A stretch of 64,000 nt of DNA from Nitrospira sp. (GTDB lineage: Bacteria > Nitrospirota > Nitrospiria > Nitrospirales > Nitrospiraceae). The notes under the pieces are model-generated. The model was not told the DNA's origin. It saw only the letters and a program-made list of their open reading frames with translations, and did not search any database. The stretch lies in NCBI GenBank assembly GCA_005116945.1, contig SWDH01000031.1, positions 216,925-280,924 on the forward strand, read 5' to 3'. How positions within the stretch are numbered: the stretch's first letter is position 1; each line of letters opens with the position of its first letter. Both the position numbers and the translations under genes were made by a program. Below are positions 18,899 through 40,785 of this stretch, one piece after another.

Positions 18899-19100
18899 GC
18901 AGGATGCTCAAAAAGTCCGCCCAGCAAGGCCGCAACGAGCGAAGAGGTACGCACCGCACTTCGTGTAGCCGTTCGCCTTTGCAATGAATCTTGGCGAACG
19001 GATGAGCCCGTTCAGAAATTCGAATATCTGAGGGGTGCCCCTCACGTTGAGCCTCTGAGCGATGCGAGAACGAAGCTGGCGGGCTTTTACAGCATCCTGC
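18899..19100. repeat. Dispersed palindromic element, copy C (long type)
   Basis: A 202-bp element with ends GCAGGATGCTCAAAAAGTCC and, in reverse complement, GCAGGATGCTGTAAAAGCCC. Compared with short copies it carries an extra internal block of about 75-100 bp containing the hairpin CCGTTCGCC / GGCGAACGG. Its right end is the stop codon of the rhomboid gene (read on the minus strand as TAG-CAGGATGC). Upstream, 18790-18898 holds nothing recognisable. Confidence 0.85.
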
Positions 19101-19804
19101 TAGCTATCCAATCGGTCTCTGCGGCCCGGTGCCAAGAAGGGTACGTCCGGGCGTTTGAACAGACCGATCAACGCCATTCCAGCGAGAAACCCGCCGATAT
19201 GGGCAAAGAATGCGACGCCGCCACCCTCGCTCCCGATGCTCATCCCTCCACTCAACAGTTGCATTACGAACCACATGCCGAGGACGATTGCTGCCGGCAC
19301 CCGTGTGGCGCCTAGGGCGGGCATCATCACCAGCACTTTGGCTCGTGGGAACAGCAACAGGTAGGCGCCTAAGATGCCCGAAATGGCGCCGCTCGCTCCT
19401 ACCATCGGGATCGATGATGACGGATCGGTGAGGGCGTGGCTTAAGGCCGCGAGAATTCCGCATGTGAGGTAGAACGCGATATACTTTGCGTGCCCCATGG
19501 CATCTTCGATGTTGTTTCCGAAGACCCAGAGGTACAGCATATTCCCTATGAGATGCATCCAGCCGCCATGGAGAAACATGCTTGTGAGTAACGTCGCGTA
19601 AGCGGGAATGGCTACGCCCATCTCAGGAGGGTCGGCTTCTCCAAACACGAGGGCAGGGATTGCCCCGTACTGAAAGACAAATGTCTCTCCTGGGCCGGCG
19701 GGAAGACTGGCCTGGTAGAGAAAGACGAGGGCACAGGCCACGATCCAAGCAATTGTGATGATTGGCGGGCGTTCAGTGGGGTTGTCGTCGTGCAGAGGAA
19801 TCAT
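19100..19804 (-). CDS. Rhomboid-family intramembrane serine protease
   Basis: Inner-membrane protease of 234 residues with about six hydrophobic helices. The HGGWMHLIGNMLYLWVFG signature lies at 79-96, the catalytic serine in GASGA (Ser138) and the catalytic histidine in FFAHIGGFLAG (His202), so the dyad is intact. The stop codon TAG is the first element of the adjoining palindromic repeat, which may act as transcription terminator. Substrates are unknown. Confidence 0.92.
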   Translation of the reverse strand: MIPLHDDNPTERPPIITIAWIVACALVFLYQASLPAGPGETFVFQYGAIPALVFGEADPPEMGVAIPAYATLLTSMFLHGGWMHLIGNMLYLWVFGNNIEDAMGHAKYIAFYLTCGILAALSHALTDPSSSIPMVGASGAISGILGAYLLLFPRAKVLVMMPALGATRVPAAIVLGMWFVMQLLSGGMSIGSEGGGVAFFAHIGGFLAGMALIGLFKRPDVPFLAPGRRDRLDS

Positions 19805-19834
19805 GGCACCCTAAGTAGGGGAAGAAGACTGTTA

Positions 19835-19925
19835 TTTGGTGTGTTTCGTTTGTTTGGTTAAATAAGACCAACGTACATACACAAAATAAACCAGATGAAC
19901 CAGAGAGACCAGATCAACCAGGAGG
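19835..19925. repeat. Short 9-bp periodic repeat (ACCAGANNN)
   Basis: The stretch 19890-19925 reads as ACCAGATGA-ACCAGAGAG-ACCAGATCA-ACCAGG, a 9-bp period. The preceding TTTCGTTTGTTTGGTTAA recurs in similar form near 40808 (TCGTTTGTTTGGTTAAG). It overlaps the 3' end of the DHH gene on the minus strand. Confidence 0.5.
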
Positions 19926-20801
19926 CCTGCGACGGTCGACGGTCGATCGGGGAAGCGCCGGGTTATCCGGCAAGGATCCATCGGGCCCAAGAGGGACGGA
20001 AAACCCTGCGGCGTGTGTATGGCCTCCACCGCCGAACGATGCGGCAAGGGTTCCTACATCAGCTCCATCCTCTCGCGAGCGCATGCTGTAATAGCGGCGC
20101 CCATCGCGATCATGCCAAATGACGCAGAACGGATGATCGGCAGACAAGCGTTCACCGATCTGACTTGTCAGGACTGCGCTTTGGACCGAAGGAACGACGG
20201 CTCCGTGGAAGTCCATTAACATTGCTTGGGCCGCAAGTTTGCTCACGAGCTCGCTTTCGTAACGGAGGATGGCACGGCCTTCCTGTTCCAATTCCTTCTG
20301 AGTAAAGTGATTCCAGAGGTGGTAGTCGAATGGATAGGAGGCGACGGCCGCATTAATTTCTCGACTGGAGGGGAGCGTCCACGTCCAAAGATCTTTGTCT
20401 TGGATATAGTCAAGGAGCCACGGAATCGGTTGATCGTGAGCCCATTCCCAGGCCAGGACCGCTCCGGATTTCTTCATGTCGAAGTATGCATAGGGAAGGC
20501 CGGCGAGGGCCTTCTCCGCGGTGATATGATGATCAAGCACAAGGAGCGCCTGCGTCTGAGCCGCCATGGTTTCCAACGTCTCGCGGGCATAGCTAAAATC
20601 CACGATGACGACTCGTTCGTCTTGAAGTTCTGTGGGAGGAGGATTCCCATGCTTCACGGGTATAAACCGAGCCGCTGGAAATCGATTCCATATCGCCCAC
20701 GCGGCGCCGAACCCATCGGCGCATTCGGCGTGATAGAGCACGACAGTGGGAGATTCGGAGAATGGGGGTTGTGTGCGAGAACCGGCCATCGCAGGGAGCA
20801 T
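19914..20801 (-). CDS. DHH-family phosphoesterase
   Basis: A 295-residue DHH/DHHA1 protein. Metal-binding motifs are AECADGFGAAWA (about 27-38), IVDFSYA (about 70), the DHH box in LVLDHHITA (about 91-99) and a late acidic DYIQDKDLW. The C-terminal DHHA1 domain ends in FGGGGHTHAAGF. Members hydrolyse short RNA or cyclic and linear dinucleotides; which applies here is unknown. The last 15 or so residues (LPRSTVDRRRPPG) are poorly conserved in character and read into repeat DNA, so the C-terminus may have been extended by repeat insertion. The ATG near 20801 could alternatively be the next Met (MAGSRTQ). Confidence 0.85.
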   Translation of the reverse strand: MLPAMAGSRTQPPFSESPTVVLYHAECADGFGAAWAIWNRFPAARFIPVKHGNPPPTELQDERVVIVDFSYARETLETMAAQTQALLVLDHHITAEKALAGLPYAYFDMKKSGAVLAWEWAHDQPIPWLLDYIQDKDLWTWTLPSSREINAAVASYPFDYHLWNHFTQKELEQEGRAILRYESELVSKLAAQAMLMDFHGAVVPSVQSAVLTSQIGERLSADHPFCVIWHDRDGRRYYSMRSREDGADVGTLAASFGGGGHTHAAGFSVPLGPDGSLPDNPALPRSTVDRRRPPG

Positions 20802-20928
20802 ACCATGTGCTCCGTCGAGACTAAAGCGCCTTTATGACTCGGACAGGCTCCTAGCAGGCTGCGGGGAAACTCGGTTCACTGGGAAAACACCAGAAATGTA
20901 TCGCAGCATGGCGCTGATACCACAATAT

Positions 20929-21140
20929 GCAGGATGCTCAAAATGGCCGTCCAGCAAGGCCGTAGCGAGTGAAGATCGGAGGAGGTACCGACCCCACTTC
21001 GTGAGGGCCGTTCGCCCGTATAATGGATCTTGGCGAACGGATAAGCTCCACTAGTGTTTCTGCCCTCCGAGGACCCTAATCGGTACGTTGAGGATCTGAA
21101 CGATGCGAGAACGACGCTGGCGGCATTTTTCAGCATCCTG
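20929..21140. repeat. Dispersed palindromic element, copy D (long type)
   Basis: A 212-bp element with ends GCAGGATGCTCAAAATGGCC and GCATTTTTCAGCATCCTG. The internal hairpin CCGTTCGCC...GGCGAACGG is present. Its right end abuts the stop codon (TAA, minus strand) of the LOG-family gene without a spare base. A partial older end (TAGCAGGCTGCGGGGAAAC) lies at about 20852, so the 20846-20928 stretch may be a decayed second copy. Confidence 0.85.
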
Positions 21141-22196
21141 TTAGAGCGCGTTGAGACGGTCGATCAGCTGACGCAACCGGCTCGCACTCCGTCGATTTGA
21201 GGTAAAGGTCAGCCGCGGCAATTCTCGTAGACTCGGCTCGTCAAGCTCTTCGGGGAGCGCCCCGCGCAATTCGAAGGTGCCCTCGGATAACAGATCGCCA
21301 AACGTGTCATGAAGATTGGCCACCTGCTCGGGGGAAATGCTCGTTTTCAGCCGCATGACCAAGAGCCGGCCCACATAGCGGATGGAATGGAACCGGCGAT
21401 AGAAACCGCTGATCTCATCGATCGCCTCGTCTATGGACGTGGTGATTTTGAACAAGCTGAGATCTTCATCATTAATAAGTCTGCGGGCCAAAAGTTGGCG
21501 TGTGATGAAGGTGTACCAGTCGTCCCAATAGTCGCAGCCTGGAGCCTGAAGGCACACGATCGGCTGAGGATCGCTCTTGCCGGTTTGGGCGAGGGTGAGA
21601 ATTTCAAAGCCTTCATCATGTGTCCCGAAGCCGCCGGGAAACAACGCAATCGCGTTGGCCTCTTTCTGAAAGATGAGTTTGCGGGTAAAGAAGTATTTGA
21701 ACGTGACGAGCTTGGGGTCATCGGCGATCGTGGCATTTGGGCCCTGTTCGAAGGGCAGCATAATATTGACCCCGAAGCTGTTCTCTCGTCCGGCGCCCTC
21801 CTGGCATGCGCGCATGATCCCATCGGCGCCCCCGGTAATGACCATGAACCCTTCCTCGACGATCCGACGGGAAAACTGGAAGGCCATCTGGTAGTTGGGA
21901 TCGTCCGAGTCGGTGCGAGCCGAGCCGAAGATGCTGATCTTGCGCCGATCGCAATAGCCATGGAAGACCCGGAAGGCATGACGCAGTTCTTTGACGGCGC
22001 GATTGACGATCTTGAGATCCAGGATGTCTAGATGAGAATCGTGGAGTCGAAGCGTCCCGGCCAGGAGCTCCTTCATGATCGCCGCTTGCAGGTCATCTTC
22101 AGGACTGTCGAGCAGGAGGCGAATTTGACTGAGCAGCTCCTCGTTCGAGGGAAGAGGACGAGAACGGGACTGGGACGTCTTCATGTAGTTATCCAT
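21141..22196 (-). CDS. LOG-family (lysine-decarboxylase-like fold) protein
   Basis: Rossmann-like protein of the LOG/TIGR00730 type. Seen: SIFGSARTD, MVITGGADGIMRACQEGA (about 125-142) and the signature PGGFGTHDEGFE, all expected for nucleotide-monophosphate phosphoribohydrolases. N-terminal (about 1-80) and C-terminal (about 270-350) extensions make it longer than the small LOG enzymes, as in the PpnN group. The start is placed at ATG 22196; a TTG at 22256 adds 20 residues without a clear ribosome-binding site. Likely cytosolic; activity inferred from family. Confidence 0.83.
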   Translation of the reverse strand: MDNYMKTSQSRSRPLPSNEELLSQIRLLLDSPEDDLQAAIMKELLAGTLRLHDSHLDILDLKIVNRAVKELRHAFRVFHGYCDRRKISIFGSARTDSDDPNYQMAFQFSRRIVEEGFMVITGGADGIMRACQEGAGRENSFGVNIMLPFEQGPNATIADDPKLVTFKYFFTRKLIFQKEANAIALFPGGFGTHDEGFEILTLAQTGKSDPQPIVCLQAPGCDYWDDWYTFITRQLLARRLINDEDLSLFKITTSIDEAIDEISGFYRRFHSIRYVGRLLVMRLKTSISPEQVANLHDTFGDLLSEGTFELRGALPEELDEPSLRELPRLTFTSNRRSASRLRQLIDRLNAL

Positions 22197-22279
22197 AGGG
22201 GGTTCTATTTCATCCTTGAGAGAAAAAATTCTATCAGCTGATTGCCTATCGGTCAAAGGAATGGAACATTGGTGTGCGA

Positions 22280-23056
22280 TTAAGAGAGATGGGGGGAAGG
22301 AGGCATTGTTTGGAGCGCCCAGGCTCTGATCCGCCCGAGATCGGGCGATGAGAGGTCAGTGAATTGAATATCGATGTGCCAGGTAGGAGTCTCGCCTGAT
22401 GTGTCATCGGGTTCTACCTGAGGCGCTTCACTGGCCAACACCTTTCCACGAATGGTCAGAGGCGTATTTTGACCGGAAATCGAAAAGGCCAGTACGACGT
22501 TTGTCTTTGGCGTGAGCTGTGTTGCCGATTCGATCAACCCTCCAGCATGGCTCAGCTGGGTGATGATGGCGTTATAGTTGAGCCCCGGTTCTGGGGTTTG
22601 TCCAACCACACTCACCACGACGGGAATTCTCGTGCTCCGTCTGGGTGGGTTGAGCAATACGTCCTGCGCGCTGAGCACCCCGACCGGCTGGTGCTGTTTG
22701 GTGACAATTAAGAGGGAGGCGCCTGTGGCCATCATGAGTATCGAGGCCTCTGTGATGGCCTCATCGTATTCGATGAATTGTACCGGCCGTGTCATGATCG
22801 TCCGGACTTCGATCTCGTGCGGTTCGAGCCCCTGAGCGACAACTTTTTTGACGATGTCGGTTGGCGTCATAATGCCGAACTGTGTGTCGGTATCCTTGAT
22901 AAGCAGACAGGGCGCCTGCTCTCGCTCAAGCAACATGGCTGCCTCACTGACGGAGACGTCCCCTGGAATTTGTACAACCCCTGGTGTCATCATATGGGCA
23001 ACCATCGTGGGTATAAGTGGTGTCGTCTTCACGGACTTGTCATCGTCGTTCATCAT
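22280..23056 (-). CDS. CBS-domain pair with C-terminal PilZ-like domain
   Basis: Two CBS motifs (about residues 20-75 and 85-140; APCLLIKDTDTQFGIMTPTD and ASLLIVTKQHQPVGVLSAQD), ligand-sensing modules for adenosine compounds. They are followed by a domain beginning RRSTRIPVVVSV that continues TWHIDIQFTDLSSPDLGRIRAW, which resembles PilZ (RRxxR then a later D/NxSxxG-like area). A c-di-GMP effector role is therefore possible, but the second motif is imperfect. The start is set at the Met pair MMNDDDK (23056), preceded by GGGAG; an upstream ATG at 23125 gives a non-conserved leader. It is divergent from the MNIO gene. Confidence 0.75.
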   Translation of the reverse strand: MMNDDDKSVKTTPLIPTMVAHMMTPGVVQIPGDVSVSEAAMLLEREQAPCLLIKDTDTQFGIMTPTDIVKKVVAQGLEPHEIEVRTIMTRPVQFIEYDEAITEASILMMATGASLLIVTKQHQPVGVLSAQDVLLNPPRRSTRIPVVVSVVGQTPEPGLNYNAIITQLSHAGGLIESATQLTPKTNVVLAFSISGQNTPLTIRGKVLASEAPQVEPDDTSGETPTWHIDIQFTDLSSPDLGRIRAWALQTMPPSPHLS

Positions 23057-23232
23057 GGGCTCGAGCACTCCCTCGATTGATGCCTGCACGATTCGTGAGG
23101 GCCCGCCCCTGGCGACGTACGCCAAGTATAGCAGACGGGTCCCTCTTGCCTATGAATCGGGCTTCCCTTGTCAAACAATGAGTTCGGCGAATAGACTAGG
23201 CCAATTGTCAGTACAGTACGAGAGTTGATCCT

Positions 23233-24723
23233 ATGCCTGATTCCGGTTTTGTTCAACAGGACTTTCAGCGCCGTCTCAGGAACATTCCTCTGCTGGGAAT
23301 GGGGCTGTCAGTCGACGTCTATTCTCCCAACCTGTTTGAGTTGGTGAATACACTCAAGGCGCAAGGACTTCAGCCCGGCTACCTCGAAATCTTTAAGGCA
23401 ACGGCGACTGTGCTGTCAACGGTTAGACAGGCTCTGCCGGATATATCATTGGGATACCATGGGGAGGGGTTGTGGATCACTCAGCCGGATGTTCAAGACT
23501 CTCCGTTCTTTCAGCAGGACGTGGACGAGATGATTCTGCAACTCAATAGTATACAGAGCCTCTGGCTGAATCATGAATGTGCGATGAAGCAGATGGCGGG
23601 CTATTCGTTCGGTACGTATGTTCCGCCACTCTATACGCGGTTGAGTGCTGAGGTGGTGGCTGCCAACATTGCGGCGGTTCTGCACATGATGGATCGGCAG
23701 AATCGCCGAGCAGATGGGACTGCGCCGCTCTTTCTCTTGGAGATGCCGCCGCTCACATATTTTTCCGCGGGCACGCTATCGATCCCTCATTTTTTTCGGC
23801 TTGTCGCAGAGTTGGTACCCTGTGGCCTCGTGCTCGACATCGGGCATCTCTGGACGGTCTATCGCTATACCACCGCCTGCCGACGGATGTCGCTTGAACG
23901 ATTCGTTGGGGAGTTCCTCGATGAGTTTCCTCTGGATCGAGTCGTCGAAATCCACATCGCAGGGTTAGCCTGTCATGAGTCGATTGGTCAGTCAACCTCG
24001 GGAGAGGAGCTTCCTGAATGGATCGACGCGCATGCGGCTCCGATTCCGTCTATCCTCCTCACCATGCTCGAACAAGTTCTGACCCATTCGAACCTCGTGA
24101 GTCTCCGGGCGGTGGCGCTTGAAGTGGACACCAAGCCGATTGAGATGATCGTGGGGGAGTATGCAGAGGCTGTTCGGCGTTTTTCCCCCGTCGTTCAGCA
24201 GACGATGGCAAGAGGAACGTCTCTCGAACACTCATTAGAGCCGGCGCCCCATCCGATTTCTATCCAGGCGCCGGTGTGCCAGTCAGATCGACAGCAGCTA
24301 TATGACGAGTATACGCGCTATGCGCACATTATCTCGGGGCATGCTCCCGCGACAGGGCCGGAATGGCAGGACGCAGCCACCGAAGCGACCGGTATGACCC
24401 GTTACCGTACGGGATATCTCCCCTATGAGATTCTCCATTGGGGCGGAGATCTCGTGGAGATGTTCCCGCAGACTTGCCGGGTGTTAGCGGAGCGGGGCAT
24501 TGACCTGGCAGAGTTTGTGGCCTTCTGGTTTCGGTCACCACGACCGCTTACGCACTCGTACGATTTCTTCCTCCTGAAGATCGAAAGGTTTCTCGAATTT
24601 GTGACGGAACGTGCATTGGACTTACAGGGCTGCGCACAACAGGAATGTGATATCTTGCGCCAGGCCTATGCTGAGGCGAATGAAGTGGTGGAACCAGTGA
24701 TGGAGATGGAGCGGACTCGATGA
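23233..24723 (+). CDS. MNIO (DUF692) family protein fused to an unknown C-terminal domain
   Basis: Residues 20-310 match the TIM-barrel multinuclear non-heme iron oxidative enzyme pattern. Candidate metal ligands in family order are H76 and E78 (GYHGEGLW), H114 and E115 (NHEC), E170 (LLEMPP), D202 and H205 (LVLDIGHLW), E239 and H241 (VVEIHIAG), D265 and H267 (WIDAHAAP), and E297 and D299 (LEVDTK). The stretch GYSFGTYVPPLYTRLSAEVV also fits the family's G-DLGHLxPLPYT-like block. Residues 330-496 form a second, helical-looking domain, not recognised with certainty, that recalls the DUF2063/HvfC partner (FP..R.L, PLTHSYDF, FLEFV). MNIO enzymes modify Cys or other residues of peptides. No precursor peptide was found beside it. 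The stop overlaps dus by ATGA. Confidence 0.82.
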   Translation: MPDSGFVQQDFQRRLRNIPLLGMGLSVDVYSPNLFELVNTLKAQGLQPGYLEIFKATATVLSTVRQALPDISLGYHGEGLWITQPDVQDSPFFQQDVDEMILQLNSIQSLWLNHECAMKQMAGYSFGTYVPPLYTRLSAEVVAANIAAVLHMMDRQNRRADGTAPLFLLEMPPLTYFSAGTLSIPHFFRLVAELVPCGLVLDIGHLWTVYRYTTACRRMSLERFVGEFLDEFPLDRVVEIHIAGLACHESIGQSTSGEELPEWIDAHAAPIPSILLTMLEQVLTHSNLVSLRAVALEVDTKPIEMIVGEYAEAVRRFSPVVQQTMARGTSLEHSLEPAPHPISIQAPVCQSDRQQLYDEYTRYAHIISGHAPATGPEWQDAATEATGMTRYRTGYLPYEILHWGGDLVEMFPQTCRVLAERGIDLAEFVAFWFRSPRPLTHSYDFFLLKIERFLEFVTERALDLQGCAQQECDILRQAYAEANEVVEPVMEMERTR

Positions 24724-25883
24724 GTTTCTGGCAATCACTTCCCAGACCGGTCATTGGGATGGCGCCGATGGATGGGGTTACTGATGCTACCTTTCGACAT
24801 ACCGTGGCGATGCACGGGAAACCGGATGTGTCCTTCACGGAATTCACACACGTGCATGACGTCTGCCGGGGACCGGAGTTCCTGTTGGACTCCCTCATCT
24901 ATCACGAAGCTGAGCGACCGATTGTCGCGCAACTCTATGGAAAAGAGCCGGACCTCTTTTATCAAGCCGCTCATGCGGTGTGTGAGTTGGGATTTGACGG
25001 GTTAGATATCAACATGGGCTGTCCCTCGCGGAGCGTCGCCTCTTCCGGATCGGGCGCGGGGCTGATCCGAACGCCGGATGTGGCTCACTCCATTATGCAG
25101 GCTGCTCGGCAGGGGATCGCCGATTGGGCGGCTGGTCAGACTCTTGAGGGCGCAGGTCTCAAGCCGGGCAGAGTGGCGGCGATCCACCGGATAAATGAGC
25201 GACGGCAGGATGCCTGCCCGCTCGTTCGGCGCAGGATCCCCCTGTCTGTGAAGACACGCCTCGGCTACGATGTGGTGGTCGTCGAAGAATGGATCGAACA
25301 TCTCCTCAGGGAACAGCCCGCGGTCATTTCTCTCCATGGACGCACCTTGCAGCAAATGTATCGAGGGGAAGCAGATTGGAACGCCATCGCTCGGGCGGCA
25401 GAGATTGTGAAGGGAAGTGAGACGCTATTGTTCGGTAACGGGGACGTACATAGCTATGACGATGTCATCCGTCGCGTGAGGGACACCGGAGTCCATGGGG
25501 TGTTGGTTGGGCGAGCCGCGCTTGGAGCGCCCTGGTTCTTTCGGCAGAAAGAAGACGCGCGAAGAGTGTTGCTGCAACATCGGTCTGAAGAAGGGCCTGA
25601 ACCGTGGGTGCCGCCGCTCGATGTTCGCTTCGAGATGTTGCTTGATCATGCGAGACGGTTTGAAGCGGCCTGCGGACAGGGTCAGTTTCGGCGGATGCGT
25701 AAACATCTGGGGTGGTACTGCAAAGGGTTTCCTCATGCCGCCTCGCTCCGAGCCAATATGTTCCGAGTTTCGTCGGTCGCTGACCTGGAACAAGTACTCG
25801 CCGATTTTCATGCGCACTGTGCAAGTTTCACCGAGGCCTCCGATCGAATGCTGCTTTCTGTTGAACCTTCTCCGGCGTTGTAG
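24720..25883 (+). CDS. dus: tRNA-dihydrouridine synthase
   Basis: FMN-dependent enzyme reducing uridine in tRNA. Family blocks: VIGMAPMDGVTDATFR (5'-FMN binding), IVAQLYGKEP, GLDINMGCPSRSV with the catalytic Cys, VKTRLGYD, ISLHGRTLQQMYRGEADW and LFGNGDVHSYDD then GVLVGRAALG. Length (387) is on the long side, with an insertion at about 135-165 (WAAGQTLEGAGLKPG). The ATG overlaps the MNIO stop, and maf starts directly after this stop, so the three genes form one compact unit. Confidence 0.93.
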   Translation: MSFWQSLPRPVIGMAPMDGVTDATFRHTVAMHGKPDVSFTEFTHVHDVCRGPEFLLDSLIYHEAERPIVAQLYGKEPDLFYQAAHAVCELGFDGLDINMGCPSRSVASSGSGAGLIRTPDVAHSIMQAARQGIADWAAGQTLEGAGLKPGRVAAIHRINERRQDACPLVRRRIPLSVKTRLGYDVVVVEEWIEHLLREQPAVISLHGRTLQQMYRGEADWNAIARAAEIVKGSETLLFGNGDVHSYDDVIRRVRDTGVHGVLVGRAALGAPWFFRQKEDARRVLLQHRSEEGPEPWVPPLDVRFEMLLDHARRFEAACGQGQFRRMRKHLGWYCKGFPHAASLRANMFRVSSVADLEQVLADFHAHCASFTEASDRMLLSVEPSPAL

Positions 25884-26516
25884 ATGCCGATCATTCTGGC
25901 TTCCACCTCTCCGCGCCGGCGCGAGTTACTTGCCTTGCTGGGTATTCCCTTTGACGTCAAAAGCCCAATCTTCGAAGAGCGGCTGGTGGCCGATCGTTTG
26001 GCGGTCGAGCAGGTCCAGTTCTTCGCGCAGGGCAAGGCTCAGTCGGTCGCGAGTAAAGACCCTGAGGCGATCGTCCTGGGGAGTGACACAGTGATTGAGT
26101 TAGATCACGACGTGATCGGGAAGCCGGTCGATCTGGCGGATGCTCGTGCGATGCTCCGGCGCTTGGCTGGCCGCGACCATCATGTGCATACGGCGGTCGC
26201 AGTCGTCTGTTCAGCTCGCGTAATCGATATGGTCGCATTATCTACGACCGTTGTTCGAATGAAGCCGTTTGATGAACTGGCGCATGAACGGTATCTGGCG
26301 ACAGGGGAAAGTCTCGGCAAGGCCGGCGCCTATTCGATTCAAGGAGAGGGCGGTGGCTTGATCGATTCCATTGACGGAGATTTCCCGAATGTGGTCGGTC
26401 TGCCGCTCCGCCTGGTCGCGCAGCTATTGATGCAAATCGGTGTGAGCGTGCCGGTTGATCTCGACGAACTCTATGCCATGAAGCCCTACGCCAACTGGGC
26501 ACGCTTCTCAGTGTAA
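25884..26516 (+). CDS. maf: Maf-type nucleoside triphosphate pyrophosphatase
   Basis: House-cleaning or septum-inhibition pyrophosphatase. It starts IILASTSPRRRELLALLG (about 3-20), followed by VLGSDTVIELD (catalytic Asp) and GKAGAYSIQGEGGGLIDSI, all family signatures. The ATG immediately follows the dus stop with no gap. Length of 210 residues is normal. Confidence 0.94.
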   Translation: MPIILASTSPRRRELLALLGIPFDVKSPIFEERLVADRLAVEQVQFFAQGKAQSVASKDPEAIVLGSDTVIELDHDVIGKPVDLADARAMLRRLAGRDHHVHTAVAVVCSARVIDMVALSTTVVRMKPFDELAHERYLATGESLGKAGAYSIQGEGGGLIDSIDGDFPNVVGLPLRLVAQLLMQIGVSVPVDLDELYAMKPYANWARFSV

Positions 26517-26585
26517 TTGCAAAGGGGTAGGGAGCTTCCGTACAATGCCGCCTCATCAGTCTCTGCCTTGTATACGGAGGGAGTC

Positions 26586-27586: not shown

Positions 27587-27713
27587 GCAGGATGCTCAAA
27601 CAGTTCGTCCAGCAAGGCCGCAGCGAGTGAAGAGCCGAGGGCGTACCCTCTGAGGTACGTTGAGGATCTGCACGATGCGAGAACGAAGCTGGCGGACTGT
27701 TTCAGCATTCTGC
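27587..27713. repeat. Dispersed palindromic element, copy E (short type)
   Basis: Best-preserved short copy, 127 bp. Left end GCAGGATGCTCAAACAGTTC and right end, reverse-complemented, GCAGAATGCTGAAACAGTCC match almost base for base over 26 bp. The core contains CAAGGCCGCAGCGAGTGAAG, GTACCCTCTGAGGTAC and GATGCGAGAACGAAGC. It precedes the next gene's start by 15 bp, so the right arm includes part of that leader. Confidence 0.88.
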
Positions 27714-27728
27714 CGAAAGGGAGTCAGT

Positions 27729-31090: not shown

Positions 31091-31174
31091 AGCGTGGAAC
31101 CAGTTGGTTGCTCTGGAGATTCAAGCGTTTCAAGTTTTCGGAGGCTGTTTCCTGAAACCTGAAATTAGAAACTA
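31073..31174. repeat. Heptad arrays (GTGAARC and GAAACNN)
   Basis: Three tandem GTGAARC units at 31073-31093 include the stop codon of the preceding kinase gene. Downstream, 31150-31172 reads GAAACCT-GAAATTA-GAAACTA, another 7-bp period, opposite to TTTCAAG-TTTTCGG-type units around 31130. The whole region can fold as a weak hairpin. Confidence 0.6.
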
Positions 31175-31506
31175 GCAGTCTGTTGACAAACTAGCTGATG
31201 ACATCGGATATGACATCATGTCTGCGATCACTGACGGAAGCTGCGGGGCCTGCAGGCTGTTCAGAAAGGCTGGACTTCTCACCCGCCCAACCCCGGCGTG
31301 CCGAGACACGCCGTTCCGCAGGCAAGGCCGTAGCGAGCGAAGAGGCGAGGAGGTACGCACCGCACTTCGTGTAGCCGTTCGCCTTTGCAATGAATCTTGG
31401 CGAACGGATGAGCCCCTTCAGTAATTCGAATATCCGAGGGGTGCCCCTCACGTTGAGTCTCTGAGCGACGCGAGAACGCCGCTGGCGGGCTTTGTCAACA
31501 GCCTGC
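31175..31506. repeat. Dispersed palindromic element, copy F (compound, long type)
   Basis: About 332 bp. Outer ends are GCAGTCTGTTGACAAA (preceded by TAG) and TTTGTCAACAGCCTGC (followed by TAG). A second left end (GCAGGCTGTTCAGAAAGGC) lies inside at about 31251, so one copy seems inserted in another. The CCGTTCGCC...GGCGAACGG hairpin is present, and 31338-31485 is nearly identical to copy C. No supported gene overlaps it. Confidence 0.8.
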
Positions 31507-31549
31507 TAGCAATTCCAGTTGGGGCAATACATAACCGGTCTTGCTTCGC

Positions 31550-32573: not shown

Positions 32574-32716
32574 GTTGTTCGTGAAGCGTATTTCGTTGGG
32601 GCGTTTCAAGTTCCACGTTTCTAGTTTCTAGTTTCAAGTTTTCAGACGTTGTTTCCTGACAACATGAAACCTGAAACAAGAAACCAGCAACTCCACTCCC
32701 GAACGACGCTTCACGG
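32574..32716. repeat. Inverted heptad repeat region
   Basis: Begins with GTGAAGC and ends with its complement GCTTCAC. Inside, GTTTCAA-GTTCCAC-GTTTCTA-GTTTCTA-GTTTCAA on the left faces TGAAACC-TGAAACA-AGAAACC on the right, all in 7-bp register. The structure is a long imperfect hairpin, similar in plan to the one at 14514. Confidence 0.65.
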
Positions 32717-32778
32717 GTGTCCGGAGTAAAGAAGGCTGGACGCAGAGGGAGACAAAAGATGGCGCAGGGGGGCGGTAC

Positions 32779-33174: not shown

Positions 33175-33216
33175 TATCTTGTATGGTAGTGACTCTAAAC
33201 GCATGAGAGGTATGGG

Positions 33217-34596: not shown

Positions 34597-34932
34597 CTCT
34601 CCGAATGCCCCTCTCTTCCCCACGTCTCTCATCCAATCGTTCAGAAAATTAGACAACGTAACTCATTATGTTTATATGTAGTGATCCTGGCGAGCCCTTG
34701 GTCGGTCTTATTCTGTAGAAATACGCGCCACAATTTGACCGCACAAATGATTCTCTTCCGTGGGCTAACCTCCGCAGTTGTCGATGAAATGTTTGAGGAG
34801 GCGTCGCGTACGAGCTCAGGCACGGCTGTTGCGAATGTGTAATAATAGGTGGAGGTCTGTTTGATTGGTACTTGGCCTCCGAGTGACTCTTTCCTCGACA
34901 AGGAGGAGAGGGTCGTCAGAAGGGAGAGTCTG
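34597..34932. other. Intergenic stretch upstream of a secreted protein
   Basis: No gene supported. It is relatively AT-rich for this window (34640-34690) and probably holds the promoter of the downstream gene, but no clear -24/-12 or -35/-10 pair could be assigned. Confidence 0.5.
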
Positions 34933-35568
34933 ATGAGCAGGATGTATTCGGCGATGGTTGTGTTAGTCCTCGCACTTGCCAGCCTGGTGGGATATGAATC
35001 TCCAGCAGTTGGAGAGGTGAATCCAATTCGTGTGGCAGAGATGCAGAAGACTCTTCGCGATCTCTGGCTCGGGCATATCTTTATGATTCAGCATGTCGTG
35101 TTGTTCAATACCTCGAACGATCCGGTGGCGCGGGATGCCGCCGATAAACAGGTCCTCGCCAACGCCAAACAGATTGCAAACGTGTTTATCCCGTTCTACG
35201 GCGAAGCGAGGTCTGCGAAGCTCTTTACCCTGCTGAGCGGTCACTATACCGCAGTCAAAGAATATTCCGAGGCCACCATCGCGGGGAATACCCGCCAACA
35301 GGATGCAGCACTGGTCCGCTTGGGGTCCAATGCCGACGACATCGATGGCTTCTTCATCGGCGTCAATCCCAACCACTTGCCGAAAGGTACCGTTCGAGGT
35401 CTGATCGAAGCGCATGGAGCCCACCATGTGCTCCAAATCAACCAGTACAAGAAAAAGGAGTACGCGAAGCTCGAAGAAACCTGGCCGATGATGCGCCAAC
35501 ACGTCTATGTCATTGCGGATACGCTCACGACGGCATTGGCGAAACAGTTTCCGGACAAGTTTCAATAA
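34933..35568 (+). CDS. Exported helical protein of unknown function
   Basis: ATG at 34933 follows GGGAGAG. A signal peptide (MYSAMVVLVLALASLVGY, then AVGEV) directs export. The mature 190 residues are helical with many histidines at regular places (LGHIFMIQHVV, SGHYTAVKEY, EAHGAHHVLQI), giving a possible metal or heme site. The pattern resembles a widespread uncharacterised family in which LGHxxWxRxVV and HGxHHxxQI are conserved, known to me only by resemblance. Not a glycosyltransferase by any visible motif. Downstream 35569-36097 holds no supported gene. Confidence 0.72.
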   Translation: MSRMYSAMVVLVLALASLVGYESPAVGEVNPIRVAEMQKTLRDLWLGHIFMIQHVVLFNTSNDPVARDAADKQVLANAKQIANVFIPFYGEARSAKLFTLLSGHYTAVKEYSEATIAGNTRQQDAALVRLGSNADDIDGFFIGVNPNHLPKGTVRGLIEAHGAHHVLQINQYKKKEYAKLEETWPMMRQHVYVIADTLTTALAKQFPDKFQ

Positions 35569-36097
35569 CTCGTGAGTGGCGCCGCCGCCGGGTCGGTTTC
35601 GAGAGACGGATATGTCAATCAAGTCGGTCTTGCAGGAAGGGGATCCTTTGCGCTACGATTTTGGCTGGTGGCGCGTCGGTTCCGTCAATGAGTACATGCA
35701 GAAGTGCAGTTCTATCTCGAACCTCCTGAACGCGCCGAACTGTGAACGGTCTATCAGTGGAAAACGTTGCTCTTCAATATCCTGATTGGATGTGAGGGAC
35801 ACCGGTGTCCTATCTTGTGCCAGTTTATTTACATCCCCCGTATATTCCGAAGACGATCATCCCGCAAAGACGTTGTGAGGTTGCGCCCACATCTGCTGAG
35901 GTTGACCAGTGCCGCTTTTTGGCTACATGTATGGCGATACGAAGCTGGACTGGCCTTGCGGGGATTCTCGATCGCATCAGCGGGCTCGGCATGACCGTGG
36001 GGTTTCAATTGTCGGGGAGCGCGTCGCAGCTGCAGATATGAAAGTGTGAGTTAGGGCCACAGGCATTGTGCGAGTTGTGTGAATGCGGGGGACCTTT
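35569..36097. other. Long gap between a secreted protein and a methyltransferase
   Basis: Several short frames exist (35576-35785, 35805-36041 plus strand), but none has family character, coherent codon use or a good start. The segment may be decayed coding DNA, because fragments such as GILDRISGLGMTVGFQL read like protein. I see no repeat copies. Confidence 0.4.
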
Positions 36098-37345
36098 ATG
36101 AGAGGACTGACCCGGGAACAGGCCATATTCTTAAGAGTGACTCGTGCCTACGTGAAGGAGGAACGACCGGATATGAGTTTCCGGTTTGCGTTCGACGGTG
36201 TTCCTCAGCCTGTGATCGGCAGCGGTTCAAGACGAGTGGAGGTGTTGTTTCATAATGCAGCGCGACTCTTTCAGCGGATATTCTTGGAAGGAAATATGGG
36301 GTTGGGCGAAGGGTATTCTGAAGGGCAAATAGAGGTCAAGGATGAAGACTATAAAGAGTTTTTGTGTATCTGTGTCTACGCGACGTCGCTACGCATTCTC
36401 CGGCATCTTTCGATCTTCGACATGATTGCCGCCGTCCGCGCCAGGGCGGGCGGGTATTTTACGAAGCCTCGGCAACATGCGACCATCGATAATCATTATT
36501 CTCTGAGCGACTGGTTTGAGAGTGACGATGACTCGAACACGTTCTTCCACTATTGGCTCGACCAGGATCATCGCATGTATTCTTGTGGGAAATGGGACCC
36601 GGAGACCAAGACTCTTGAAGAGTCTGAAACAAACAAATTGGAATTGTATGCCAAGCGAATGGGCATCGATGAGCGCAGCCGGGGAAACACGCTCCTCGAT
36701 TTGGGCTGTGGGTGGGGAGGGGTGTTGTTTTTTATGGCGGAGCGATTTGGCGTGCGCGCCAAAGGGCTGACCTTGTCCACCGCGCAGCATCGGTATATTA
36801 CACGAGAGATTGCCCATCGACAGTTGCACGATCTTGTCTCGGTGGAACTCAGGAATGTCCATGATATGGAGGGGAGATACGACTACATCATTTCCATCGG
36901 CATGTTGGAGCACATTACCGATTTCGATGACCTGTATAAGAAAATAGCCGGGGCTCTGAATCCCGGCGGGCAGGCGCTGATGCATTCGATCTATTCGGAG
37001 TCATGGTTCTACAAGGCAGATCGATGGTTCCTGAAATACATTTTCCCCTACGGAGCCTGTCCGAATTTTTCTTCCAACATGAAATGCTTCAGGAAATATT
37101 TCAACGTTGTGGAATCGAAAAAGATGCCGTACTTGTCCTATCCAAAAACGCTCGACGCATGGTTCGCAAATTTCTGTCACGCTGAGCCGCAGATTCGTAC
37201 ACTTCTACAACAGCGCAGCAAGGTCAAAGATGTGGATTTTGCGGTCAGGACGTTCAAGCACTACTTGGCAATCGCGTCCGTCAGTCTGACATTCGCCGGG
37301 TTTGTGGGACATACGCTCGTTAAGGACCCGAGAGTGCAATCGTAG
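36098..37345 (+). CDS. Cyclopropane-fatty-acid-synthase-type SAM methyltransferase
   Basis: A protein of about 415 residues. Domain order fits CFA synthase: an N-terminal region (LFHNAARLFQRIF, LGEGYSEGQIEV), then the SAM fold with motif I LLDLGCGWGGVLFFMA, then SIGMLEHITDFDDLYKK and the late FPYGACPNFSSN that corresponds to the active-site FPGGxxPS block. It would cyclopropanate membrane phospholipid acyl chains. Start chosen at the second Met (MRGLTREQ), because GGGGGACC lies just before it; the ATG 15 bp upstream has no site. It stands alone in the operon. Confidence 0.86.
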   Translation: MRGLTREQAIFLRVTRAYVKEERPDMSFRFAFDGVPQPVIGSGSRRVEVLFHNAARLFQRIFLEGNMGLGEGYSEGQIEVKDEDYKEFLCICVYATSLRILRHLSIFDMIAAVRARAGGYFTKPRQHATIDNHYSLSDWFESDDDSNTFFHYWLDQDHRMYSCGKWDPETKTLEESETNKLELYAKRMGIDERSRGNTLLDLGCGWGGVLFFMAERFGVRAKGLTLSTAQHRYITREIAHRQLHDLVSVELRNVHDMEGRYDYIISIGMLEHITDFDDLYKKIAGALNPGGQALMHSIYSESWFYKADRWFLKYIFPYGACPNFSSNMKCFRKYFNVVESKKMPYLSYPKTLDAWFANFCHAEPQIRTLLQQRSKVKDVDFAVRTFKHYLAIASVSLTFAGFVGHTLVKDPRVQS

Positions 37346-37506
37346 CCCGCACAACCCATGAGCGCGCTTTCGCGTGACGCGAAACATGAAGTGCTGAGTG
37401 CTGAGTTCGAAGTTCACGAAACCTCGAACTGTCGTCAATCCTGCGTGTTCTGCTCTTTCCGCTCATCACTCACCCCGAACCAAAAACTCGCAACTGGCCT
37501 CCGCCC
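37346..37506. repeat. Intergenic stretch with GTGCTGA heptads
   Basis: At 37391-37405 it contains GTGCTGA-GTGCTGAG, and an 18-bp stretch here (37390-37407) is identical to one inside the Ca2+-ATPase gene at 53453-53470. A TTCGAAG...CGAAC pair and a GCGCTTTCGCGTG palindrome add to the hairpin potential. Confidence 0.6.
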
Positions 37507-37983
37507 GTGATGGTTCTGTTGGTCTGGCTCCATGTGCTCGCGGCAGTCGCCTGGATCGGAGGGATGATTTTTCTTTCCCTGGTCCTGGCCCCCCTGGTCA
37601 GAAGTCGTAAGGCCTTGCCTGAATTTATGGCGCTCTTTCGTTCGGCCGCGCGCCGATTCCGCTTTGTGGTCTGGGGTGCCATTGCCGTCCTATTGAGCAC
37701 CGGCCCCGTGCTTCTTCAGCAGAGAGGCCTTTCTCTTCTCAATCCGGTCGAATGGCCACAGGTCTTGTGGATGAAGCTAGGATTGGTCGGAGCACTCCTT
37801 CTCCTCACAGCTACGCACGATCTTCTCCTCGGGCCACGGGTGAGGAAGATCAGTGCGCTCCCTGAGGGAGCCAGGTCTTCCTGGGAGCAGACCATCGTTC
37901 GTACGTCCTCCTGGGTGCCTCGTATCGCGCTCTTGCTTGCTCTTTTCGTACTTGGCGTAGCGGCGATGCTTGCGCGCTCTTAA
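37507..37983 (+). CDS. CopD-like / DUF4149-like small membrane protein
   Basis: A 158-residue protein with four hydrophobic helices. It opens VWLHVLAAVAWIGGMIFLSL, the His-containing first helix of CopD-type copper-transport or related membrane proteins, followed by FRFVVWGAIAVLLSTGPVLL and a late ATHDLLLGPR. Start: GTG at 37507 and ATG at 37510 are adjacent, and either is possible. Copper handling is only inferred; no copper gene neighbours it. Confidence 0.75.
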   Translation: MMVLLVWLHVLAAVAWIGGMIFLSLVLAPLVRSRKALPEFMALFRSAARRFRFVVWGAIAVLLSTGPVLLQQRGLSLLNPVEWPQVLWMKLGLVGALLLLTATHDLLLGPRVRKISALPEGARSSWEQTIVRTSSWVPRIALLLALFVLGVAAMLARS

Positions 37984-38237
37984 ATTCCTGTGCTGTCGCC
38001 TTCTGCCACAGTACGTTCCGTCATCGCTGTAGCAAGACGCCCCATAAGTCGCGGCATCTTCTCATTTGAATAGTTCAACCGCTGAATAACTCTAGAGAAA
38101 CTTGTGCGATCCTCTGAACGACGAACGGTCTTGGGTTTGCAAAGATTCTGTTCGCAACGTGGTTGTTTCCCTTCGCTTGGCGAGGAGGAACTATACGGTC
38201 ATCTCTAGCCTCTGTTCAACCTGCATAGGTGCCGGCT

Positions 38238-40046
38238 ATGCCAGTGAATAAAAAAACTTCTTTTTCGATCTTGTATGTCTTTCTCGCGATTTTTGCGGTC
38301 ATTCTCGTGCACGATTTCATCGTGGCCACGCAGAAGCTCGAAGAGATTCCGTACAGCGAATTCAAGTCGCTTCTGGCGGCCGGCAAAGTGGCGGAAGTCA
38401 CGCTGACTCAACAGCGAGTGACCGGGATGCTGAAACCTCAAGATATATCCAAAGAGCAGAAATTGTTTACGACCGTTCGTATTGAAGACCTCGATCTCAT
38501 CAAGGACCTCAGCGCGGGCAACAGCAAATTTAGCGGCACCATTGAAAGCACCTTCCTGCGCGATATTCTCTCCTGGGTCCTTCCGGCTGTGGTCTTCGTC
38601 GGCATTTGGTTCTTTGTCATGAAGCGGTTCGGACAGGGCCAAAGCGGGTTCATGACGGTGGGGCAGTCGAAGGCAAAAATCTATGCCGAGAAGGACACCA
38701 AAGTCACCTTCGCTGATGTGGAAGGTGTGGACGAGGCGAAGGAAGAACTGCGCGAGGTGATCGAGTTTCTGAAGACACCGGAAAAGTTCACGCGGCTTGG
38801 AGGAAAGATTCCGAAAGGGATCTTACTCGTCGGCCCGCCTGGAACCGGCAAGACGCTCCTGGCCCGCGCCGTGGCAGGAGAGGCTGGGGTGACCTTTTTC
38901 AGCATCAGCGGATCCGAATTCGTGGAAATGTTCGTCGGAGTGGGGGCAGCCCGCGTGCGGGACCTATTCGAACAGGCGAAGGGCAAAGCGCCCTGTATTA
39001 TCTTCATCGACGAGTTGGATGCGCTGGGGAAAGCACGAGGGATGGGACCGATGGCGCATGAGGAACGTGAGCAGACCTTGAACCAGCTGCTGGTTGAGAT
39101 GGACGGCTTCGATCCCCGCATTGGCGTCATTCTGATGGCGGCGACCAATCGGCCTGAAATCCTGGACCCAGCGCTGTTGCGGGCCGGACGGTTCGACAGG
39201 CAAGTCTTGGTCGATCGCCCGGATAAGATCGGCCGCCTGGCTATCTTGCGCGTTCATGCCAAACAGGTGACGCTGGGTCCCGATGCGGATCTCGAGGTGA
39301 TCGCCGGAATGACCCCCGGGTTTTCCGGCGCCGATCTCGCCAATATCATCAATGAAGCGACGCTTTTGGCCGTGCGCCGGGATAAGGAGCAGGTGGGCCT
39401 CCCCGAATTGCAAGAAGCGGTGGAGCGGGTTGTCGCAGGATTGGAAAAGAAGAACCGGGTGCTCAACAAGATGGAGAAAGAGCGGGTCGCCCACCATGAA
39501 GTGGGCCACGCCTTGGTGGCGTTGTCATTCCCAGGCGCAGACCCGATACAGAAAATCTCCATCATCCCCCGTGGGATTGCCGCGTTGGGCTATACCCTTC
39601 AACTCCCGACAGAGGATCGTTTCCTGATGACCAAGACGGAGCTGGAGAACAAGGTTGCCGTCTTACTTGGAGGACGGATTGCGGAAGAATTGATCTTCGG
39701 CGAGGCCTCCACGGGAGCGCAGAATGACCTAGTCAAGGCGACGGACATTGCCAAGAGCATGGTGAAATCCTACGGGATGAGCGAGAAGTTGGGAACCATC
39801 ACGCTCGATCGTGAACGCCAGCCTCTCATGATGCAGATCCAGGCGCCTCAGGAAAAAGGCGACTACTCGGAAGAGACCGCCCGCGAGATCGACTGCGAAG
39901 TGCGCCGCATCGTCGATGAGCAATACGAGCGCGTGAAGCGGCTGCTGACGGGACGCAAGGCCGCGCTCCTCGAAGGAGCGAAGAGGCTGCTCGAGCAAGA
40001 AGTGATCAGCGGCAGCGATCTGAAAGCCATCATGGACAAGTATTAG
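38238..40046 (+). CDS. ftsH: ATP-dependent membrane zinc protease FtsH
   Basis: Inner-membrane AAA+ protease of about 602 residues. Two transmembrane helices (about 8-25 and 112-132) frame a short periplasmic domain ([19 protein letters not shown]). The AAA+ module has [18 protein letters not shown] and the pore loop [14 protein letters not shown], and the zinc site is HEVGH (His420, Glu421, His424) with [16 protein letters not shown]. Start at the second Met (38238); the GTG at 38229 adds only MPA. The gene ends TAT-TAG directly joined to palindrome copy G. Confidence 0.95.
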
Positions 40047-40171
40047 CAGGATGCTCAAAATGACCGCCAGCTTCGTTCTCGGTTCATCAAAATCCTCAAC
40101 GTACCCCGCGGGTACGCCTCCGGTTTCGATTCGCCTGCGGCCTTGCTGGACGGCCATGTTGAGCATCCTGC
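40046..40171. repeat. Dispersed palindromic element, copy G (short type, inverted)
   Basis: A 126-bp copy in opposite orientation to C-E. Left end TAGCAGGATGCTCAAAATG begins inside the stop codon of ftsH, and the right end GTTGAGCATCCTGC closes the stem. The core contains GGTACGCCTCCGGTTTCG, as in copy A. Confidence 0.85.
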
Positions 40172-40279
40172 GCGAGGTTGTTCTGAGGTTCTAGATCTGC
40201 GAACCATTGAGTTCCCACTCTGCCACATTATTTTTCCGTCAGGCGCCTGGGGCGCAGCTCACATCGGCAATGAAGGTTG

Positions 40280-40756
40280 ATGAGGACATCGTTCAAGACC
40301 GGCCTGAGTTTTGGGCTCACGTCCGGAGTAATTACGACATTGGGGTTGATGGTGGGACTCCACTCAGGCACCCACTCACGAGCCGTCGTGATCGGTGGCA
40401 TCGTGACCATTGCGATTGCCGATGCCATGTCTGATTCGCTGGGCATTCATCTTGCGGAGGAATCGAAGAATAACGGGAACGTGTCGGAGATCTGGGAAAC
40501 GACCATTGCTACCTTCGTGGCCAAGTTTCTAATTGCACTGACCTTTGTGGCGCCGGTGCTACTGTTGCCCTTGGAACAGGCCATGGTGGTGAGTGTCGTA
40601 TGGGGCCTCATGCTGCTCGCAGGGCTGAGCTATTTCTTGGCGCAGGCTCAGCAGATCTCGGCTTGGAAAGTCATCACGGAGCATGTCGTCATGGGGGTCA
40701 GCGTGATCGTGATCGCGCACTTTGTGGGCGACTGGGTTCACGTGGCGTTAGGTTAG
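40280..40756 (+). CDS. VIT/CCC1-type divalent-metal transporter-like protein
   Basis: A 158-residue membrane protein with four to five helices. The first helix GLSFGLTSGVITTLGLMVGL and the second GGIVTIAIADAMSDSLGIHL, followed by AEESK, match the VIT1/CCC1 core; these move Fe2+ or Mn2+ in eukaryotes and bacteria. Start taken at ATG 40280 with AAGG upstream; a TTG at 40277 is adjacent. Substrate is inferred only. The stop (TAG) is immediately followed by GAGGATGCTGAAAAAG, a truncated end of the palindromic repeat. Confidence 0.78.
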   Translation: MRTSFKTGLSFGLTSGVITTLGLMVGLHSGTHSRAVVIGGIVTIAIADAMSDSLGIHLAEESKNNGNVSEIWETTIATFVAKFLIALTFVAPVLLLPLEQAMVVSVVWGLMLLAGLSYFLAQAQQISAWKVITEHVVMGVSVIVIAHFVGDWVHVALG

Positions 40757-40785
40757 GAGGATGCTGAAAAAGTTTATCAGCGGTT
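40754..40785. repeat. Truncated end of a dispersed palindrome (copy H)
   Basis: The sequence TAGGAGGATGCTGAAAAAGT begins at the stop codon of the VIT-like gene. It reproduces one inverted end of the element family with a single change (GAGG for CAGG), but the rest of the element is missing. Confidence 0.55.

Follow-up and report, generated by a model that had tools for sequence, protein, structure and literature searches.

A probable IS5/IS1182-related MITE with frequent stop-codon contact in Nitrospira

The window analysed here is a stretch of 64,000 nucleotides from Nitrospira sp. (contig SWDH01000031.1, positions 216,925 to 280,924), in which copies of one palindromic repeat lie among protein-coding genes and a tRNA gene. 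An earlier note on this sequence had listed at least seven copies, and cores were recovered at all seven places. Three of the seven adjoin a stop codon, and a remnant at a VIT-like gene is additional to these. The features were as follows.

5324-5451, minus strand: element copy; a glycosyl-hydrolase-3 gene has its start codon 11 nt away from the 3' end of this copy
8686-8797, plus strand: degenerate element copy, followed closely by a tRNA gene (8805-8885)
18821..18823, plus strand: TAG, presumed target duplication on the 5' side of the copy with its core at 18899; CTAG/CAGG junction read directly
18824..19100, plus strand: long-form copy; 5' extension 18824-18898, core 18899-19100 with an internal insert
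19101..19103, plus strand: TAG, presumed target duplication on the 3' side of the same copy; the rhomboid TAG stop is read from 19100-19102 on the opposite strand
19100..19804, minus strand: rhomboid-family gene (PF01694, E 2.4e-35), its TAG stop (19100-19102, minus strand) adjoining the element
20855..21141, plus strand: long-form copy; core 20929-21140, TAG at 20852-20854 and 21142-21144
21141..22196, minus strand: LOG/lysine-decarboxylase-like gene (PF03641), its TAA stop (21141-21143, minus strand) adjoining the element
27587..27713, plus strand: hairpin core away from any stop; the same site is occupied in relatives G007, G043 and G006
31176..31506, plus strand: copy of the TGTTGACAAA-ended subfamily; core 31428-31506, TAG at 31173-31175 and 31507-31509
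38238..40046, plus strand: ftsH-like gene (PF01434, PF00004; start by codon model), its stop adjoining the element
40046..40171, minus strand: hairpin core; the ftsH TAG stop (40044-40046) takes its G from base 40046
40754..40772, plus strand: TAG stop of the VIT-like gene (PF01988), followed by a remnant element end, GAGGATGCTGAAAAAG

The contacts at the rhomboid TAG, the LOG TAA and the ftsH TAG, together with the truncated end at the VIT-like gene, were as the earlier note described them. At the rhomboid gene, the copy at 18824..19100 ends in a C, which is the complement of the G in the minus-strand TAG stop. The note had placed the first base of the element at the stop; the contact itself was found, mostly through the 3' end of the element.

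We found that the element begins with CAGGMTGC(T/G)GAAAAA and finishes with the inverted counterpart TTTTTCAGCATCCTGY. The boundaries given in the earlier note were revised: they are CAGG...CCTGY with TAR on both flanks, and in some copies the start moves upstream by about 75-80 nt (for example to 18824 and 20855). The hairpin core measures 126 nt and folds end to end; on the plus strand the copy at 27587 forms a single hairpin with a fold z of -6.8. The plain 126-bp unit was rejected as the whole element because an 80-nt 5' extension, which members of a subfamily share, holds the true 5' end. Element lengths range from approximately 126 to 330 nt, with long inverted ends. Among 44 copies from this genome, double changes were observed in 18 of 32 stem pairs, and an A5-stem-T5 pattern is present on both strands. 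At the Rfam gathering score the window matched only a tRNA and no family was returned for the element, and we found no published description of this repeat in the open-licence papers searched.

The proposal of the earlier note that these are non-autonomous mobile elements preferring TAR was supported. At eight distinct loci with a transposase of one type (P0001), or a fragment of it, the element's ends flank the gene in inverted orientation, 0.8-1.4 kb from each other; five of these loci have an open transposase and three are broken, one of the broken loci lying in this genome and the others being in relatives. In this assembly, which is 82% complete, no intact P0001-type transposase was detected, only the fragment with stops. 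P0001 scored 280.5 bits against the NCBIfam IS5 model NF033581 (cut-off 140), while a second transposase, P0002, reached 119.5 bits and stayed under that cut-off. Against the IS1182 model NF033551 the scores were 182 and 213.9 bits, below its cut-off of 270. The REP-associated Y1 transposase that the note had suggested as a partner was not upheld: none of 27 Y1 loci, some of them cut by contig ends, had the end pair 0.6-2.5 kb apart, and for these loci a REP/RAYT origin was rejected. An IS630-type origin with a TA duplication was likewise rejected, as none of 28 DDE_3 loci (some also cut by contig ends) had the end pair, and the third base of the flanks agrees too.

This agreement was assessed in the 36 copies flanked by TA on either side. 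The third base agrees in 30 of them, compared to 20.0 in shuffles (0 of 2000 reached 30), which suggests that insertion duplicates a 3-bp TAR target. The base preceding TA agrees in 24 copies versus 22.5 in shuffles, and a 4-bp YTAR duplication was rejected for want of any excess. The rhomboid locus of relative G006 provides one clean empty site, with a single TAG and the element absent. With shared terminal repeats, this duplication, and orthologous sites both with and without the element, it is probable that the repeat is a MITE, a short non-coding relic of an IS5/IS1182-type insertion sequence whose transposase would mobilise it in trans. A different mode of insertion is proposed for IS1272, which substitutes itself for inverted repeats according to PMC5678879; here a transposase would recognise hairpins beside stops and swap in its own element. 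The IS1182-model scores, although under cut-off, and the different hairpin found at several gene ends in relatives are in keeping with this. However, IS1272 is described there as lacking a target duplication, which conflicts with the 30 agreeing flanks, and at the rhomboid locus of G006 a single TAG stands with no counterpart of the hairpins that the other relatives have. We regard such replacement as improbable.

The MITE is abundant, with 90 copies counted across 864 kb of the genome and matches in 95 of 117 genomes in an order-wide sample (own genome counted). Of the 73 copies with a defined 3' end, 36 have that end in contact with the stop codon of a gene transcribed towards the element, genes being called by a home-made codon model rather than a standard annotation; these 36 contacts are not fully independent because a copy in one species may be the orthologue of a copy in another. 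The expected share was approximately 5% from TA sites or 10% from YTAR sites (binomial P 2e-27 and 5e-17). In a replicate of 107 named Nitrospira loci, contact occurred in 50/135 cases compared to 9.3% expected (P 3e-18). The earlier judgement that four such occurrences are unlikely by chance therefore holds at larger scale. It was noted that the sequence TARCAGG[ACG]TG coincides with a called stop in 24 of its 56 occurrences, compared to 539/17,848 for TAR. No copy lies inside a called gene (0/73), and 27 of the 73 lie between convergent genes, versus 120 of 898 adjacent pairs.

A simple account of this enrichment would be target availability alone, with stops as the commonest tolerated TAR sites and no additional selection. 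Stops make up 511 of the 5,163 TA sites counted as non-coding-or-stop and 209 of the 1,015 such YTAR sites. Some copies occupy the prmC-murA junction; just 3-11 nt separate the two genes in 23 of the 30 loci from relatives, and the stop there is nearly the sole non-coding target. However, contact on the 3' side reaches about 4-5 times what YTAR sites predict, with the 5' side close to expectation. The exact arrangement, in which a TAA or TAG stop consists of TA plus the element's last base, accounts for 24 of the 36 contacts; the remaining 12, which are one base off or involve TGA stops (TGA in five), speak against availability. The zone 1-10 nt from the stop is enriched as well (17/135 vs 1.1%). 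We consider availability on its own a rather unlikely explanation.

The two ends also differ. In this genome 3' ends contact stops in 36/73 cases and recognisable 5' ends in 6/34 (Fisher P 0.003), the search pattern for 5' ends favouring TAA/TAG. In other species the 3' ends gave 50/135, and the 5' ends gave 11/112 when the 70-79 nt class was counted (P 6e-7) and 17/112 with the range 60-89 nt (P 2e-4). Among the 36 intact copies, 13 make contact by the 3' end only and 4 by the 5' end only (P 0.049), and in a wider set of 49 the numbers were 14 and 6 (P 0.12). The preference is clear in large samples and marginal in copies with both ends intact, and this marginality would suit availability. 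A near-palindromic target does not predict an orientation bias. The bias hints at selection or exaptation.

We examined five genes (rhomboid, LOG, ftsH, prmC and the M50 peptidase) in relatives and found insertion at a pre-existing gene end, with the C-terminus little altered or unaltered. Contact created by gene truncation was seen at none of the five, which are a small part of the many contacts. The rhomboid stop is TAG in 24/30 loci, and this genome alone has the element there (1/30). At the LOG gene, all six alignable relatives have TGA and lack the element at that codon; therefore TGA must have become TAA before insertion or together with it. A copy follows prmC in 7/30 loci, in both orientations (3 and 4). 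The earlier note had named two observations that would count against it, a lack of stop enrichment among genome-wide copies and orthologous sites that never differ in presence; across about a quarter of this genome, 107 loci of relatives and the five genes, neither was found.

At the peptidase-M50 gene the hairpin lies at the stop or at most 9 nt away in 22/27 loci, so that at least one stop-sited copy is kept across much of the genus. In 16 of these loci, own-arm pairing gave -38.4 kcal/mol compared to -30.5 with swapped arms (0/400 permutations). Hairpin interiors swap among these loci, and gene conversion or the replacement of one subfamily by another could produce the covariation. In relatives, several gene ends have another hairpin instead of this element; for that other type, a density scan of this genome returned none at an over-strict threshold, and a profile search gave 18 raw matches in total.

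Conservation at the M50 gene suits a reading in which the copies are domesticated gene-end structures, such as (bidirectional) terminators, protectors of mRNA 3' ends or REP-like translation dampers; selection for function would then explain stop adjacency, and mobility would be mere origin. Consistent with it are the end bias here and in other species, the M50 hairpin with its compensatory changes, and the placement between convergent genes. E. coli REPs at most 15 nt from a stop stall ribosomes (PMC12306157), and the SPRITE repeats of pneumococcus are found close to 3' ends (PMC3049150). The earlier idea that the copies are structured terminators replacing or protecting gene ends is to this extent possible, but the prmC-murA copies in both orientations speak against it. 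Presence is also unconserved at most genes examined, the rhomboid gene among them, and the bias is marginal among intact copies. A terminator scan was negative in the four copies covered; it is weak evidence because only loops of 3-8 were allowed, long loops being invisible to it. Domestication as the whole explanation is possible, though we hold it only tentatively.

For the MITE reading, we propose that an IS5/IS1182-type transposase would act in trans, with insertion probably duplicating TAR, and with a preference for sites where a pyrimidine precedes it. Since TAA and TAG end genes, a stop codon would be one of the few harmless gene-linked targets: the full TAR may be copied to both sides, or the last base of the element may restore TAG or TAA from TA. 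Intragenic insertions would be purged and those at gene ends would persist. Copies with the 3' end toward the gene, their hairpin beginning at the stop, seem preferentially retained, and some may have become long-kept 3'-UTR structures with compensatory changes, most likely serving as structures of the mRNA 3' end. Parts of this model seen directly are the common ends, TAR agreement on both sides, autonomous partners, empty sites and stop enrichment. Counting against it are the lack of an intact partner here, the TGA of the LOG relatives, the 12 inexact contacts of 36 and the unpredicted orientation bias.

Several known repeats share features with this element. RUP and Correia/NEMIS are MITEs with terminal TA, of 100-200 bp, with 5'-3' end pairing and many intergenic copies; RUP is linked to IS630-Spn1 and has ends common to an IS (PMC2229807). 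In contrast, the Nitrospira element has an IS5/IS1182-type partner (DDE_3 0/28), a probable TAR duplication and frequent exact stop contact. SPRITE repeats are enriched near gene 3' ends and terminator-like, and 36 BOX copies provide a gene's stop codon (PMC3049150), whereas the Nitrospira repeat has an identified autonomous partner and a presumed duplication whose three bases spell a stop. REP/REPIN sequences are likewise palindromic and multicopy, E. coli copies often lying at most 15 nt from a stop (PMC12306157), but compared to these RAYT (Y1) systems the Nitrospira element is longer, with long inverted ends, an apparent TAR duplication and a DDE-type partner. IS1272/IS1182 has a related transposase by the NCBIfam IS1182 model and palindromes as context (PMC5678879); the differences are the target duplication suggested here and transposase scores under the IS1182 cut-off. 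QMITE2 of Coxiella burnetii is a MITE with a stable stem at a gene 3' end and a stop immediately before it in the one case reported (PMC5896051), whereas the Nitrospira pattern is genome-wide.

A more far-reaching reading, which we hold only tentatively and consider less likely than not, is this: stop codons may serve as a safe harbour for an element that duplicates a stop trinucleotide, by which hundreds of gene ends in the Nitrospirales would have been seeded with a standard hairpin starting at the stop, some of them kept by the host as orientation-specific 3'-end control elements. These would be under compensatory selection and would affect the stability of the mRNA, the termination of translation or the ending of transcripts. 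A repeat widespread in the order now has a probable origin, and one genus offers many natural presence/absence pairs for the effect of a stop-abutting hairpin on mRNA and translation. For a mobile element in a gene-dense genome this would be a simple lifestyle, in which TAR duplication makes TAA and TAG stops harmless landing sites.

The seven palindromic copies described in the earlier note, together with the stop-codon contacts reported for them, were borne out by direct inspection of the window (C25:216925-280924, from a 3.39 Mb assembly that is 82% complete). Searching 864 kb of this genome with a profile built from 30 copies yielded 90 copies after merging, or about one per 10 kb, which extrapolates to roughly 350 copies genome-wide; a loose first count had given 290 candidates. 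The element-core pattern matched at least 107 loci in named genomes, all titled Nitrospira, Nitrospiraceae, Nitrospirae or Nitrospirota, and because the matches listed all carry such titles, the window was assigned to a Nitrospira genome. With its own genome included in both samples, the element was matched in 38 of 41 genomes of relatives and in 95 of 117 genomes (19 of 24 genera) of the order. It was noted that the window contains further repeats:

3518, 7706, 8619, 14513, 31072 and 56356: scattered repeat of the GTGAAGCGT type, whose palindromic form occupies the place of the 8686 copy of the element in three relatives
9250-13206: reading frame of 1318 aa containing a 51-nt repeat six times, at a spacing of 378-783 nt
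53438-53534: 31-nt inverted repeat of the TGCTGAGTGCTGAG type, with arms 35 nt apart

Contact with stop codons is firmly enriched. A dicodon model made for this analysis called 908 genes in the 864 kb, six of which lay inside elements and were removed; 73 of the 90 elements had a defined 3' end. Among these, 36 had the stop of the facing gene at -2 to 0 of the 3' end and seven more at 1-10 nt, and none lay inside a called gene. Exact contact, in which the stop is formed by TA and the element's last base, accounted for 24 of the 36; the remaining 12 were one base off or TGA stops (five TGA). The contact expected from non-coding and stop TA sites, counting both orientations, was 5.0%, while stops made up 209 of the 1,015 YTAR sites that were non-coding or stops, about 10% per side. 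A facing stop was found at 6 of 34 recognisable 5' ends and at 1 of 77 of the core's own 5' ends. In an independent count, 24 of the 56 TARCAGG[ACG]TG sites were called stops, compared with 539 of the 17,848 TAR sites. A replicate set comprised at least 107 named loci (780 kb), some of which may come from the same genomes as our sample of relatives; the only criterion for picking these was exact identity to the 3' half of the core, so the downstream sequence did not bias their choice. Among the matches listed there, 50 of 135 3' ends touched a facing stop, against 9.3% of YTAR sites, and 17 more lay at 1-10 nt, against 1.1%. By stop-to-core distance, 5' contact among the matches listed was seen for 11 of 112 when 70-79 nt was accepted and for 17 of them when 60-89 nt was.

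Both ends were located in 49 copies (17 from this genome and 32 from named loci), some of which may be orthologous across species and whose 5' ends were sought with a pattern biased to TAA/TAG; TA stood at both ends in 36. The base following TA was identical on the two sides in 30 of these 36 copies, compared with 20.0 in shuffles (0 of 2000 as high), and the base preceding TA showed no excess (24 matches vs 22.5). Because the base after TA matches beyond the shuffles, we infer that the element, CAGG...CCTGY, probably duplicates TAR, usually with a pyrimidine in front. Where a gene runs into the element from the 5' side, its stop is its own TAR; where it runs in from the 3' side, the stop is TA plus the terminal base and reads TAG when Y is C and TAA when Y is T. 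One copy in the relative G007 has TAG on the gene side where G043, lacking the element there, has TAA, and the element may thus convert TAA stops into TAG. TAG stops are frequent in this genome: in the 864 kb, they end 263 of the 908 called genes.

Orthologous gene ends were compared. Among 30 rhomboid loci, this element lies at the stop in this genome only, with short CAGG-like stretches there at three others (L270, L277, L278); 24 of the 30 genes end in TAG, and the position of the stop is constant to about five codons. The relative G006 has a single TAG followed by the sequence found beyond the element here, which is an empty site. All six alignable relatives have TGA and no element at the LOG stop codon. 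At ftsH (30 loci listed, with paralogues among them), the element starts exactly after the stop at five loci, one with TGA, and one base later at a sixth; two of the five keep the outer arms around a different interior. The ftsH stop in G006, G045 and G014 instead carries another palindrome family (TAG, then GAGCCTGT). In some species (L301, L319, L322), members of a palindrome family that has TAGGAGCCTGTCC...GGACAGGCTCCTA as its ends start at the ftsH stop, and an end of this family lies beside the 20929 copy (20840-20854). Ends of the form TARGAGCCTGT were called stops in two of seven cases in the 864 kb.

The prmC gene (TIGR03534) is followed by murA (NF006873), which starts 3-11 nt past the prmC stop at 23 of 30 loci. 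A copy abuts the stop at seven loci, by its 3' end in three and its 5' end in four (two decayed), and therefore at least two insertions occurred. With a copy, murA starts 180-229 nt on in five of seven; in this genome it starts directly after the element with different codon spelling. The peptidase-M50 gene matched PF02163 and no NCBIfam model. At its 27 loci with readable ends (29 fetched), an element arm lies directly at the stop in 19, within 9 nt in three and is absent in five, and the protein is one residue longer at two loci. At the 16 loci with both arms, own arms paired better than arms swapped between loci (mean -38.4 vs -30.5 kcal/mol; 0 of 400 permutations). Two interior types are exchanged among these loci, which means that part of this signal may stem from replacement or gene conversion. 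A pyrimidine-rich palindrome (GGTTTATCTGGTTTG...CAAACCAGATAAACC) lies just 3' of stops in several Nitrospira (L268, L271, L275; G042, G007, G043), at some gene ends filling the place of the element in another species.

The conserved core of about 126 nt is a single end-to-end hairpin, with inserts in longer copies; the five computed folds had energies between -55.8 and -70.6 kcal/mol (z from -4.7 to -8.9). On its 5' side the core is preceded by an extension, some 80 nt long, that is similar within subfamilies only, with BLAST partners for 11-12 copies and, further upstream, for 1-4 only. Since this extension opens with CTAGCAGGCTGCGGAAAAAC or CTAGCAGTCTGTTGACAA, which is matched in inverted form by TTTTTCAGCATCCTGCTAG at the 3' end, the whole element measures about 200-330 nt. 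The hairpin is maintained: in 44 full cores, 96.3% of consensus-structure cells were paired, against a mean of 88.0% (at most 89.1%) over 200 shuffles of the partners, and both sides had changed in 18 of 32 pairs. At L298, L311, L380, L385, L391 and window 31270-31330, the outer arms enclose an unrelated repeat (e.g. CACCCGCCCAACCCCGG...), which suggests nested insertion with the outer stem retained.

The candidate partner transposase P0001, from G015, has DUF772 and DDE_Tnp_1 domains and scored 280 bits with the NCBIfam IS5 family model (cut-off 140) and 182 with IS1182 (cut-off 270). The inverted pair of element ends was found at 11 of 22 loci of its relatives (up to three mismatches), which come down to eight distinct copies that are clear and a ninth that is weak, and at none of 28 DDE_3 and 27 Y1 loci, some of both cut by contig ends. 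The frame is open in G015, G008, G043, G024 and one G044 copy, and broken in the second G044 copy, G047 and this genome (L250). TAG flanks both ends in all seven transposase copies with readable flanks.

The bias towards the 3' end is clear in the larger samples and marginal in the fairest subset, the 36 copies in which both ends are intact (stop at 3' only in 13, 5' only in four, both in two, neither in 17; sign test, P 0.049); all 49 two-ended copies gave 14 and six (P 0.12). This marginal result makes exaptation of the hairpins slightly less likely. The bias, if real, would require something beyond target duplication, most simply that a hairpin right at the stop is tolerated more readily or is of use; the 5' orientation would leave about 80 nt from stop to hairpin. 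A terminator function is possible, with A5-stem-T5 on both strands, and the copies between prmC and murA argue against a strong terminator. A terminator scan that covered four copies found none, which is weak evidence because only short loops were allowed. By analogy, an equally good model would be the translation effects described for E. coli REPs within 15 nt of a stop (PMC12306157).

Known precedents are MITEs with terminal TA that pair end to end, repeats at 3' ends, and REPs close to stops (PMC2229807, PMC3049150, PMC12306157, PMC5896051, PMC6382973 and PMC5678879). For N. moscoviensis, a table in PMC12306157 gives nothing but counts, as far as the available text goes. In the open-licence literature searched, we found neither this family nor any MITE that duplicates a stop trinucleotide. 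The element described here is multi-copy and non-coding, with IS5/IS1182-type ends and TAR on both sides, present or absent at orthologous sites and strongly enriched at stops. It would be moved by an IS5/IS1182-type transposase; insertions elsewhere in genes would be purged, and those at a stop would be tolerated, because the stop survives duplication.
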